This document shows, piece after piece, positions 9,930-53,034 of a DNA stretch of 64,000 nucleotides (positions are counted from its first letter, which is position 1; each line of letters opens with the position of its first letter). Below the pieces are notes generated by a model. It saw only the letters and a list, made by a program, of their open reading frames with translations. It was not told the DNA's origin and did not search any database. The position numbers and the translations under genes are program-made. Source of the DNA: Boothiomyces macroporosus (taxonomy: Eukaryota; Chytridiomycota; Chytridiomycetes; Rhizophydiales; Terramycetaceae). Where the stretch lies: the NCBI GenBank assembly GCA_027604185.1, contig JADGKB010000008.1, forward strand, positions 62,001 to 126,000, read 5' to 3'.

Positions 9930-10607
9930 ATGGAAACAATTGAACAATATAAGGCGAAATATCTGATGGTTCTAGAAGAGCAACTACATCTTCATAGACA
10001 GTTAAAGAGCCAAGAGATGGAAATTGCACACCTCAGGAATTTGGTATACCAGAAAGACAAGGACATTGAACAATTACTGCCTAAAACGAGACCTATTCCG
10101 AGATTCCCTACTCCTTCCAAAGATCCGTCTGACAGTGAAAGTGACTCCAAGTTTATTGGCTATACTCCAGAATCTGACAGAGAGAAACCAAAACGCAAAT
10201 CCTCTCTTAATGCTGCTAAGCCTAAATTTGACACTCTTGCAGATGGAAGTACCGTGCCTAGACAATGCGGAGACTGCTTTGCTACTCATACAAGTGGACA
10301 TTGGTGTTTGGATCAGTTTGTAAAGAATGGTCACATATGCCAGAAATGCTACCGTCGTAGAAAGAAGATGGCGGTTTCTGGAATAGAGTTCACTCCTTCC
10401 CATGAATGTTCTAATTGCAATGTCAGAAAATCCTCAATGTGGTTCAAGCATCCTAATCAGGCGGGCAAATATCTCTGCAGCGGCTGTAAAGATCAAATTA
10501 AAATCACTTGTAACATACTCTCGCCTAAAGAGCCGCAATCGCCAGTATCTACCTGCTCACACGAGTCTGTTCATAGAGGGTCAAGAATCAGTGACCTGCT
10601 ATCGTAA
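9930..10607 (+). CDS. Coiled-coil double GATA-like zinc-finger protein 1
   Basis: 225 residues without introns. Residues about 10-50 form a heptad-like coiled coil (YLMVLEEQLHLHRQL, LRNLVYQKDKDIEQLL). After a Ser/Pro-rich linker come two Cys4 fingers: CGDC-x20-CQKC followed by basic YRRRKK, and CSNC-x18-CSGC with SSMWFKHPN and YLC, which is GATA-like. It is probably a dimeric DNA-binding regulator. The next gene is a tandem paralogue with the same layout. The first finger is not a standard GATA finger, so DNA specificity is unknown. Confidence 0.75.
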   Translation: METIEQYKAKYLMVLEEQLHLHRQLKSQEMEIAHLRNLVYQKDKDIEQLLPKTRPIPRFPTPSKDPSDSESDSKFIGYTPESDREKPKRKSSLNAAKPKFDTLADGSTVPRQCGDCFATHTSGHWCLDQFVKNGHICQKCYRRRKKMAVSGIEFTPSHECSNCNVRKSSMWFKHPNQAGKYLCSGCKDQIKITCNILSPKEPQSPVSTCSHESVHRGSRISDLLS

Positions 10608-10907: not shown

Positions 10908-11489
10908 ATGAATAAACTCGAGTATTACAGGGAGCAGTACCTTTTTCTCTTGAAAGACCAAGAGAACCTAAAGAAGCGACTTGCGGATCAAGAGAATGAA
11001 CTGTCGCTGCTGCAGGAGTTGGTCTATCACCAGGATATCCAGATATCCAACCTGCAGAATAAAGCGTCAAAGTCGCCTGTCCAAAGGTTTGTTGCATATA
11101 AAGAATCACACAAAGAACGGCAGCCAACAAACAATTACAACATGCATGACACTCTAGCCGATGGAACAACTGTCCCACGCCAATGCGGTGATTGCTTCTC
11201 TACACGCACTTCTGGCAGGTGGTGTCTAGACTCTTTTGTAAAGAAGGGGCATATCTGTCAAAAGTGTTACCGAAGGAGAAGGAAATGCGCTGCTGCTGGA
11301 ATCAATTTTATCCCATCACACAATTGCAACCACTGTAAAACGACCAATTCTAGCATATGGACCAAACATCCGAACCAAGTAGGGCTGTACCTGTGTATAG
11401 ACTGTTCCGACAAACTGAGGATTACTTGCAACATTGTGCAAGGAGAGCCTCAATCGCCTGTGTCTACAACATCAAAAGAATCTGATTAA
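10908..11489 (+). CDS. Coiled-coil double GATA-like zinc-finger protein 2
   Basis: 193 residues, intronless, tandem paralogue of the previous gene. The coiled coil (YLFLLKDQENLKKRLADQ, LLQELVYHQDIQISNL) is followed by finger 1 CGDC...CQKC with YRRRRKC and finger 2 CNHC...CIDC with NSSIWTKHPNQVG-x-YLC. The linker between coil and fingers is shorter than in its partner. Both end in the motif PQSPVST. The leucine-rich coils suggest homo- or heterodimers of the two proteins. Its stop lies 17 bp from the stop of the convergent vinculin gene. Confidence 0.75.
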   Translation: MNKLEYYREQYLFLLKDQENLKKRLADQENELSLLQELVYHQDIQISNLQNKASKSPVQRFVAYKESHKERQPTNNYNMHDTLADGTTVPRQCGDCFSTRTSGRWCLDSFVKKGHICQKCYRRRRKCAAAGINFIPSHNCNHCKTTNSSIWTKHPNQVGLYLCIDCSDKLRITCNIVQGEPQSPVSTTSKESD

Positions 11490-28446: not shown

Positions 28447-28527
28447 TAAATCAATAAACTTGCCGTATAATTGTTACTTTTGAAAATTTAAATCAATAAA
28501 CTTGCCGTATAATTGTTACTTTTGAAA
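28447..28527 (+). repeat. 42-bp tandem duplication with AATAAA signals
   Basis: The segment beginning TAAATCAATAAACTTGCCGT occurs twice with a 42-bp period. The first 39 bp of both copies are identical. It lies in the 3' space between convergent RAB7 and AP-1 gamma genes, so it duplicates an AATAAA-type polyadenylation signal. Confidence 0.85.
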
Positions 28528-50676: not shown

Positions 50677-52036
50677 TTACAGGTCTTCATCAATGGTAAT
50701 ATAACTGTCAGAGTCTGATTCGTCCAGCGAAAGCTTTTGCCATCTGCAATCATCCAGCCCTTCCAGCTCACCATCAATCTGATATTAACCAATCTTACCA
50801 TCAGTTTAAAATAGCGTATCGTAAACTCGTCATCATCCAATTCATAAGTTTCCCTGGTGTCAAATGGAGCAAATATCCGAACTACGCGTTCTACACCAGC
50901 AGTTGCAATGTACATGTCATTAACATTCATGCAAGAGTTCACTATAGAGTAATGTCCACTTAGAACTGTAGTTGGTTTAACAATTGGAACTTGTTGTCCA
51001 TTCACCATAAACTCTGATTCTTTTGGTTTCGATAGCTTAAATCCATAGCATTTGTAATCGTCGCTTCCCATAAAAAAGTAATCTGAAAAGAAACATCCAG
51101 TTTTAATTGTACACAGCGAATTAAAGTTGTCATCGTAGCACATTAGAATTGGTTGTGGATCATTTACATCGAATATCAGCGGATAGAATTTCTGTACATT
51201 TGTCCCTATCTGTGTGCCATATTCATTCCACACTGCACAAGTCACATCACTAGGGTTAGACAACTTGGTATTTGTGTGTATTCTTGTATTGTACTTGAAT
51301 GATTGCTCTAGGTTTCTCAAGTCATATAAATACACTCCTCCTTTGTCATCACTGGAGATAAACAAATTCTGGTTTACTGGATTAAACTGGACACTGTTTT
51401 GTCTTCTCCCTATTTTAAGCTTTTTGATGACCTAGAATTAATTACACTCACCTGGCTTTGTAATCGTATGAAGGGCTTTTCTTGCTCGCAGGTCCCATAG
51501 TTTGATGGTGTAATCTTGTCCAGCTGTCAAATAAATACTGTCCTTGCAAGACAGCTTTAAACAAGCGTCCAGATGCGCTTGTTTCTTTACGGACTTGCCA
51601 GTCTCAATGTTGTAAATAATCACCAGTCCATCGTTTCCACAGCTTAGCAGGTAGTCATTCGAAAATTCAATTGAAAAAATGTTTGACAAGTGTCCTGATA
51701 TTACCGACAGTTACCTAATGGTTGGATTTACAATACCTATAATGAAATCTCGAATACCTGAAGTTAGCTTATTTATACCTAAATAAGATTAAGGTTACCT
51801 ACTGATAAGAAAGATAGCAACCTTAAATTAGTATAAAAGGGACCTGTGCCTTTGAAGACCAACTCGTTCTCTAAATCGTGCATTCTATAAACAAGGACAT
51901 CCAAATCGTCCCCACCCGTAGCAAGCAATCCATTTTTGTAACTCAGCGCATTTACACATCCTGAATGATCTTTGATTGTCTTGCTATGCCATTTACGCTT
52001 CATTAGCTTGTCAAAGTTTAATTCGGTGATTTCCAT
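50677..52036 (-). CDS. WD40-repeat protein (DCAF5/6/8-like) with intron arrays
   Basis: Four exons encode 382 aa with about six WD40 repeats (DHSGCVNALSYKNGLLATGG, GHLSNIFSIEFSNDYLLSCG, YTIKLWDLRA, SVQFNPVNQNLFISSDDKGG, VLSGHYSIVNSCMN). The pattern resembles DCAF substrate receptors of CUL4-DDB1 ligases. The tail is acidic. The intervening sequences are a 149-nt array (51695..51843), a 42-nt array (51410..51451) and one ordinary 20-nt intron (50779..50798). Complete removal joins a G to GACAC to make the WD40 Gly-His, which fixes the outer splice sites. Confidence 0.85.
51410..51451 (-). other. Tandem array of two mini-introns
   Basis: On the minus strand 51432..51451 (20 nt, GTGAGTGTAATTAATTCTAG) is followed at once by 51410..51431 (22 nt, GTCATCAAAA...AATAG). 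Removing only the first unit leaves a stop five codons on; removing both restores the WD40 repeat. Confidence 0.8.
51695..51843 (-). other. Tandem array of seven mini-introns
   Basis: The 149-nt interval divides completely into seven consecutive GT...AG units of 22, 23, 20, 21, 21, 22 and 20 nt, reading from 51843 downward (boundaries after 51822, 51799, 51779, 51758, 51737 and 51715). Every junction is AG|GT. Units include GTAACCTTAATCTTATTTAG and GTAACTGTCGGTAATATCAG, each with a branch-like TTAAT/CTAAC or similar. They differ in sequence, so this is an old array. It could also be spliced as one 149-nt intron. Confidence 0.8.
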
Positions 52037-52047
52037 CTTGAAAATTT
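52037..52047. promoter_or_regulatory. 11-bp gap between divergent start codons
   Basis: Only CTTGAAAATTT separates the ATG of the WD40 gene from that of the BRE-like gene on the other strand. Both promoters must lie inside the partner's coding region and introns, or transcripts must be leaderless. Confidence 0.7.
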
Positions 52048-53034
52048 ATGGAAGTGTTGAAGAACCATTTCGAAATTAAAAGAAATACGTTTGGGCCAAA
52101 CCCAGACTTGTATCATTTGTCATTCAAGCAATTGGAAAAGCAGTTTGAATTTTATTATTTGGAATCAACCAACGACTATATTTTGCCCTTCAGGATCAAT
52201 ATTGATCTTCCGATTCAGGATATAGTGAAAGAAATAAAGCAAGGATTCAATGAAAAGGAGATTAAAGAGTTGAAGGAATTGGGAATTGAAAGAATCAACT
52301 TTGAATTGAATGTGTTGGAGAAGAAGCAAGTAACATATTTCAAAGGCGAAGAAGGAGTGGAAGTGAACGTCGCAGTTCTATTTACTACATACGAAGGTAA
52401 TAGCAGTTAATCTAGGTAATAGCAGTTAATCTAGGTAATAGTGGCTAATCTAGGTAATAGGCAGATAGAAGATCAGCTACTGTTCAATTTCAAATTCACT
52501 GAAGATATTCAAATAGAATGCAAATCAAAACACCCCGTAAAGTATAATCAAACCTCGATATTCGATTACTTGTCCCAGATTAATGAATTTGTAAAAAAGA
52601 AAAATCAAAACACCATTCAAAGAAAGGAGCTAATTAAGCAACTCACAACTGCATTTTCAAACTATATCCTAGAATATGATGAATCATATGTTTCGTTATT
52701 TATTCATATGCCACTTGAAAATAATCCTCCTCTAGGATCTGCAGTTGTAAACATACACGTATCTATCACTTAACCTAGGTACGTCAGTATTAATCAATAG
52801 GTAATTAGTAGTAACTATAGGTAGGACCAAACTTTCCAAAGATAGCACCAGCGGTGATTCTTACATCTTCTTTATATTTTGATGGGGACTACAAACCAAA
52901 GACCACTGAATTAAAGTACAAATACAAGGAAATGCCTGTGGAACAGTTGGTCGAAACCATAAGGTAATATATTTTAATGTAGGTCCAGCATTATGGAACA
53001 GATGATTCAGTTCCAGGCATTCTTATCACAATAA
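52048..53034 (+). CDS. babam2: BRE/BABAM2-like protein with intron arrays
   Basis: Four exons encode 282 aa. The second half resembles the UEV-like fold of BRE (BRISC/BRCA1-A subunit): IQRKELIKQLTTAFSNYILE, SLFIHMPLENNPP and VGPNFPKIAPAVILTSSLYF, the last like the FPxxxP...S core of ubiquitin-conjugating folds. BRE scaffolds a K63-specific deubiquitinase. The exons are joined by two arrays (52397..52453 and 52759..52820) and a single 19-nt intron (52964..52982). The family assignment is by pattern only; the gene model is strong because each removal keeps the frame. Confidence 0.65.
52397..52453 (+). other. Tandem array of three near-identical 19-nt mini-introns
   Basis: GTAATAGCAGTTAATCTAG at 52397..52415 is repeated exactly at 52416..52434; 52435..52453 is GTAATAGTGGCTAATCTAG, differing at three bases. 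The following exon begins with the same heptamer GTAATAG. All junctions are AG|GT. Any odd unit left in shifts the frame or adds a stop. Confidence 0.88.
52759..52820 (+). other. Tandem array of three mini-introns
   Basis: Units 52759..52778 (GTATCTATCACTTAACCTAG), 52779..52800 (22 nt) and 52801..52820 (GTAATTAGTAGTAACTATAG) follow one another with AG|GT junctions. Removing all 62 nt joins NIH to VGPNFPK, the expected core of the fold. Confidence 0.82.

Follow-up and report, generated by a model that had tools for sequence, protein, structure and literature searches.

Within the window, which is the whole 64-kb stretch of DNA analysed here (positions 62001-126000 of contig C8 in a 15.2-Mb assembly of 216 contigs), a BRE/BABAM2-like gene on the forward strand (52048..53034) and a DCAF5-like WD40 gene on the reverse strand (50677..52036) are arranged head to head, their ATGs being separated by 11 nt (window 52036-52048). 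The former was assigned from homologues and from the match of its protein to PF06113 (E-value, 4.5e-9), and it comprises four predicted exons (52048-52396, 52454-52758, 52821-52963 and 52983-53034), the last two of which flank a single intron (52964-52982). Only two database matches to the BRE protein were obtained, from Boothiomyces sp. JEL0838 (98% identical) and Terramyces sp. JEL0728 (75%); both are database gene predictions, and that of JEL0838 is 16 residues shorter at its end. A single-sequence search gave no match to solved structures up to an E-value of 1, and a search of the whole assembly for a second copy of the BRE gene returned the exons of the window gene only. The DCAF5-like gene was likewise assigned from homologues; its protein has 13 matches, led by those of JEL0838 (97%), Boothiomyces JEL0866 (83%) and Terramyces JEL0728 (81%). 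The protein matches assign the genome to a Boothiomyces-like chytrid (Chytridiomycota, Rhizophydiales, Terramycetaceae) that is near JEL0838 without being identical to it; a nucleomorph, a ciliate and an orthonectid were discarded as sources on the strength of the 98% match. Elsewhere in the window, a 42-nt tandem duplication (28447-28527, 1.9 copies, 100% matches) lies between predicted genes, and two adjacent ORFs (9930-10607 and 10908-11489) have similar cysteine patterns, which by eye resemble those of GATA-type zinc fingers.

Gene structures were predicted using a model that combines codon context, splice motifs and intron length and that was trained on 264 kb (the 64-kb window and the first 100 kb of each of contigs C1 and C2). 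Training of this type sharpens motifs and lengths, and the score of the trained model includes an intron-length term.

Intron arrays of the gene pair

The first two BRE exons are separated by three back-to-back 19-nt copies at 52397-52453 (forward strand), as the original prediction stated. Units 1 (52397..52415) and 2 (52416..52434) are identical (GTAATAGCAGTTAATCTAG), and unit 3 (52435..52453, GTAATAGTGGCTAATCTAG) differs from them at three bases. Direct reading, sequence shuffling and TRF all confirmed this arrangement. When up to three mismatches were allowed, the 19-mer had exactly three matches in the 64 kb, all in this array, versus a mean of 0.01 in 100 dinucleotide shuffles, none of which contained three. 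TRF reported a single array at 52395-52460 (period 19, 3.5 copies, 93% matches), and the exact 26-mer formed by a unit and the following GTAATAG occurs at two overlapping places in the 15.2-Mb assembly, both inside the array. The exon directly 3' of unit 3 (GTAATAGG) was also correctly described as beginning with GTAATAG (52454..52460), which is the same as the first 7 nt of every unit; together with the preceding AG, it forms a direct repeat of 9 nt (AGGTAATAG) that flanks the triplet.

Reading frame and homology spanning the join were the grounds for taking the 57 nt as intronic. With all 57 nt excised, the frame stays open through the exon pair, whereas all seven other combinations of retained units introduce a stop at codon 121, and the joined protein (TYEGN|RQIED) aligns without insertion to TYEGNKQIED of JEL0838 and TYEGSKQIDE of Terramyces JEL0728. 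Every unit has its own GTA, a branch-point-like TTAAT or CTAAT and a TAG, so that GT..AG ends, a branch-point motif and a frame restored by removal are all found, as in U2-type introns; the assembly has two genes for U2 snRNA that pass the Rfam cut-off (C80:60682-60874 and C178:9607-9797). The unit length of 19 nt falls within the micro-intron class of this genome (about 19-23 nt). The joints between units are AG|GT with a zero-length exon, as for recursive splicing. The units are complete and stand directly next to one another, with no nested inner intron, which separates the triplet from stwintrons.

Three other arrays were identified in the two genes. The second array of the BRE gene (52759..52820, forward strand) consists of unlike units of 20, 22 and 20 nt (52759-52778, 52779-52800 and 52801-52820), and its junction (NIHV|GPNFP) is continuous in the homologues P0001 and P0002. 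The DCAF5-like gene contains a seven-unit array of 149 nt (51695..51843, reverse strand; 22, 23, 20, 21, 21, 22 and 20 nt), the first two units of which begin with GTC and GTT. Three of these units were called by the model; AG|GT joints and homology were used to place the remaining borders by hand. The resulting join (FKGTG|HLSNIF) is continuous in JEL0838 and of equal length in Terramyces, and the JEL0866 model has 13 extra residues there. A two-unit array in the same gene (51410..51451, reverse strand; 20 and 22 nt, with GTG and GTC starts) was set by hand from frame and homology; its join (KPG|RRQNSV) is continuous in JEL0866, Terramyces and Gaertneriomyces, and the JEL0838 model has seven extra residues. 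Most aligned homologues are thus continuous across the DCAF5 joins, and we infer that the extra residues in the JEL0866 and JEL0838 models represent introns missed by annotation. The seven residues of JEL0838 at 51410-51451 are best read as the result of a one-base indel that would place the 22-nt unit in frame by chance.

In the 264 kb, the model by itself identified four arrays, of which three are in the window; hand reading and homology added a fifth array (of two units) and extended one array from two to seven units. Four of these five arrays are clustered within 1.5 kb in the two divergent genes. The other 200 kb (C1 and C2) contains one two-unit array, the units of which have negative scores.

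Micro-introns and arrays across the genome

Introns of this genome are mostly 19-22 nt long and carry the motifs GTA, YTAAY and YAG in this order. In the last training round, 341 introns were called in 128 genes of the 264 kb, and 317 of these introns are 18-23 nt long. As a control, the same model was applied to the reversed sequence, where it called no introns in three genes, versus 317 introns of at most 24 nt in 129 genes on the real sequence. All of the 184 introns with positive scores are 19-23 nt long, although the score itself contains a length term. When intron length was left free, with GT and AG as the sole intron signals and the trained coding model retained, 125 of the 154 introns in strong genes were still 18-23 nt; the remaining 29 introns were scattered between 17 and 148 nt, 27 of them being 17 nt or at least 25 nt long and one being 24 nt long. 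Zero-length gaps were found in 6 of 211 neighbouring micro-intron pairs, versus a single pair with a gap of 1-20 nt.

The 24 model calls longer than 24 nt in the 264 kb all have negative scores, and most look like bridges over model errors. One of them (window 51377-51445) spans the second unit of the two-unit DCAF5 array and some exon sequence, and the long calls at two loci of the genome-wide sample described below (L027 and L058) represent units that were left unsplit by the model. At these two loci and in the DCAF5-like gene, where the model called a long stretch or nothing, some borders were set by hand at AG|GT (once at AG|GC).

To locate adjoining units in the whole genome, we used patterns consisting of a branch motif, YAG|GTA and a second branch motif. 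The matches exceeded those in the reversed control (32 versus 15, 43 versus 25 and 18 versus 12), with a large chance component. Identical matches were also seen in pairs (C20:38206 and C20:83273; C49 and C100), pointing to recent segmental duplications or unmerged haplotypes. A part of the match lists was sampled, namely a first set of 20 loci and a further 20. Fourteen of the 20 loci of up to 3 kb taken from the first two lists (13 distinct, since L033 repeats L032) carry arrays in a predicted gene and six do not; two of the 20 further loci of 0.6 kb repeat earlier places, and 8 of the 18 new ones carry arrays. Gene scores at the latter loci are low because the pieces are short. In addition, a search of C1, C2 and the window for tandem repeats with periods of 17-24 yielded further GT..AG units only at C1:40886-40993, where the units are about 29 nt long and no gene is predicted over the repeat.

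In total, 26 distinct arrays with 79 units separated by zero-length exons were collected. Fifteen arrays have two units, five have three, two have four, and the last four have five, six, seven and eight units, respectively. The units are 19-23 nt long, with one of 25 nt, and whole arrays measure 38-162 nt. Twelve of the 79 units, mostly in the hand-read arrays, do not start with GTA. Several of the larger arrays lie within recognisable proteins, which independently supports their removal. The array of L027 (six units, 133 nt) is in a glycogen-debranching enzyme that can be aligned without gaps to a solved structure across the join. A seven-unit reading of this array was rejected: the last 18 nt are exonic, and their retention closes a six-residue gap to the solved homologues and improves the alignment from 167 to 187 bits. 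In L028, the four-unit array is in a USP7-like protein that is continuous with USP7 at the join. The eight-unit array of L058/L066 (162 nt) interrupts a PWWP domain, which is matched with an E-value of 9.7e-21 once joined; at L066:731-892 it is the longest array, and one of its units seems to start with GC rather than GT.

Splicing and origin of the arrays

Each unit of the BRE triplet is probably removed as a separate short intron, because the units possess full splicing signals at the usual spacing and introns in this genome are about 20 nt long. The triplet would then represent three complete 19-nt spliceosomal introns placed end to end and linked by zero-length exons. The units could be taken out one after another starting at the 5' end, or in no fixed order. 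AG|GT joints would act first as acceptors and then as donors, as at a recursive-splicing ratchet point, and the copy number of the units would have no effect on the mature message. Mixed pathways of removal may also operate.

The near-identical units, together with the presence of AGGTAATAG on both sides of the triplet, suggest growth by two rounds of exact 19-nt duplication. No comparable flanking repeat was found among the 311 introns called single (one of which is in fact a DCAF5 array unit), where the largest is 7 nt versus 9 nt at the triplet, and when introns were shuffled among sites only about 0.02 flanking repeats of at least 9 nt were expected per 311. The similarity between the units of the triplet (p of about 0.001, corrected within the array and not for the 26 arrays) supports the view that they are copies of one intron, and whole-intron tandem duplication without gain of exon sequence is a well-supported and natural reading of the site. 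The extra 19-nt units could have been added by slippage during replication or by unequal exchange at the AGGTAATAG repeats. The latest round would have produced units 1 and 2, unit 3 being older or since changed, and the duplication was probably recent. The first unit may itself have had an exonic origin, the exon start having 7 nt in common with the units. Taken together, we consider it likely that the BRE triplet is a three-intron chain, split by zero-length exons, that grew via two exact 19-nt tandem duplications.

The same mature message would result if the 57 nt formed a single intron with an internal minisatellite, removed all at once between the first GT and the last AG; the splice signals inside it would then be mere passengers of the copying. 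The outer GT and AG are no worse than the inner ones. This explanation is unlikely, in that, even with length left free, only a few introns exceed 24 nt and their sizes are scattered, and in the trained model none of them has a positive score (a score that includes length). Arrays of unlike units also hold GT..AG units near 20 nt throughout, although this argument is weakened by the fact that 21 of the 26 arrays came from loci chosen by a pattern demanding one joint and that some borders were set by hand. A single assembly is the source of the triplet, yet an assembly artefact or a chance repeat is very improbable, given that 57 nt is short for a misassembly, that unit 3 carries three base differences, that further arrays of unlike units exist and that only 0.01 matches are expected in shuffled sequence.

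A different picture emerges from the other arrays. In L023, which has five units, units 3-5 are alike (p of about 0.01, corrected within the array and not for the 26 arrays), and a duplication mechanism is fairly supported there. In the remaining 24 of the 26 arrays, units resemble their neighbours no more closely than they resemble units from other arrays; the mean similarity score was 2.99 for 103 within-array pairs and 3.86 for 2965 cross-array pairs. Unit lengths within arrays show no clear likeness either: the mean difference was 1.25 versus 1.40 in random sets, with 20% of simulations as low, in a comparison that used the seven-unit reading of L027. The original prediction that whole introns multiply by tandem duplication is therefore well supported for the BRE triplet and fairly for L023, and lacks support in the other 24 arrays. 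Its proposal that such duplication offers a simple mechanism of intron gain was not supported as a general statement: these 24 arrays bear no trace of duplication, leaving it unsupported as the usual route, and the 311 single introns lack the repeat signature, with no excess over shuffled introns of bases common to the exon flanks. Duplication thus appears to be a minority signature, and the remaining arrays may be old duplicates or of other origin. Units of about twenty letters lose their resemblance fast, so an old duplication would be indistinguishable from subdivision or separate insertion.

Subdivision would mean that the arrays are former long introns that were divided at AG|GT joints when the spliceosome came to handle only about 20 nt, with the BRE triplet as a late local duplication on top. 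The unrelated units of 24 of the 26 arrays agree with this explanation, as does the position of the arrays. In many eukaryotes, the first intron of a gene tends to exceed the others in length. The median distance to the predicted start codon is 190 nt for 17 arrays and 673 nt for 335 single sites (long calls included), and 10 of the 17 arrays occupy first-intron positions, versus 91 of the 335 single sites (these 91 have a median of 226 nt). This bias is weak evidence and partly built in, because most of the sampled loci extend no further than about 1.5 kb beyond the array. Moreover, several joints must arise in each former intron, old duplicates look equally unrelated, and the triplet itself is left unexplained. 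We regard subdivision as a possible but rather doubtful origin of the arrays.

The independent insertion of new micro-introns, either next to existing ones at their AG|GT edges or into proto-splice sites, would also account for the unlike units of most arrays. It appears unlikely, because the flanks of the 311 introns called single show no repeat signature (observed about equal to shuffled), few of the 18 model-called arrays come after an exon end AG, and the two identical units are unaccounted for.

Our own general account, which we consider possible but somewhat less likely than not, is that intron length is quantised in this lineage: if the spliceosome accepts only about 19-23 nt, an intervening sequence could grow by whole introns only, resulting in chains of up to eight. 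Exact duplication would be one standing source of such growth, and the BRE triplet would be a case caught young.

Significance and comparison with known systems

The BRE triplet provides a clean instance of apparent exact intron duplication, and the wider and less expected feature is the apparent occurrence, in a fungus, of chains of complete micro-introns with zero-length exons. The origin of introns is a long-standing question for which young cases are few. Introns of about 20 nt that are sometimes chained provide small natural experiments in copy number, order of removal and unit age, and they bear on the smallest intron that a spliceosome can handle and on the interference between adjoining splice sites with no exon between them. 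They also have a practical consequence, since gene finders may misread array sites, as suggested by the extra residues in the DCAF5 models of JEL0838 and JEL0866. Tiny introns, zero-length exons and intron gain by tandem duplication are each known singly; their combination appears to be absent from the open-access literature searched, in which we found neither tandem zero-exon introns described for chytrids nor intron sizes given for Boothiomyces.

Tiny introns of uniform size have been described, according to the part of the source consulted, in mikrocytids (16-17 nt), the chlorarachniophyte nucleomorph (18-21 nt) and heterotrich ciliates (15-16 nt) (PMC10245619). The narrow size class and conserved signals are shared with the chytrid, which differs in being a fungus and in having tandem chains, a feature unmentioned in that part of the source. 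A text search of the available portion of a Stentor paper (PMC9505925) found no tandem, recursive or adjacent introns.

The joints of the arrays resemble the ratchet points of recursive splicing (PMC2773006, excerpt), in which AG|GT joints are usable both ways with zero exon. Recursive splicing subdivides very large introns, whereas the steps in the chytrid are about 20 nt and whole arrays only 38-162 nt. Fungal stwintrons (PMC8469720, excerpt) similarly involve several spliceosomal events per intervening sequence; they are nested, a splice element of the outer intron being interrupted by the inner one, whereas the chytrid units stand side by side and are complete.

With regard to intron gain, an allele of a Cryptococcus gene has been described in which repeat expansion created two introns identical to others in the gene, a gain ascribed to unequal crossing over, conversion or slippage (PMC2395259, excerpt). 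The repeats in that case contain introns, whereas in the chytrid intron follows directly upon intron with a zero-length exon. The proposed growth of the BRE triplet also resembles, in its joints and effect, the AGGT model (PMC3443670, excerpt), in which tandem duplication with AGGT joints adds intron sequence precisely and without changing the message. The AGGT model starts from an exonic segment that is copied and becomes an intron, whereas in the chytrid an existing intron appears to have been copied with no exon added.
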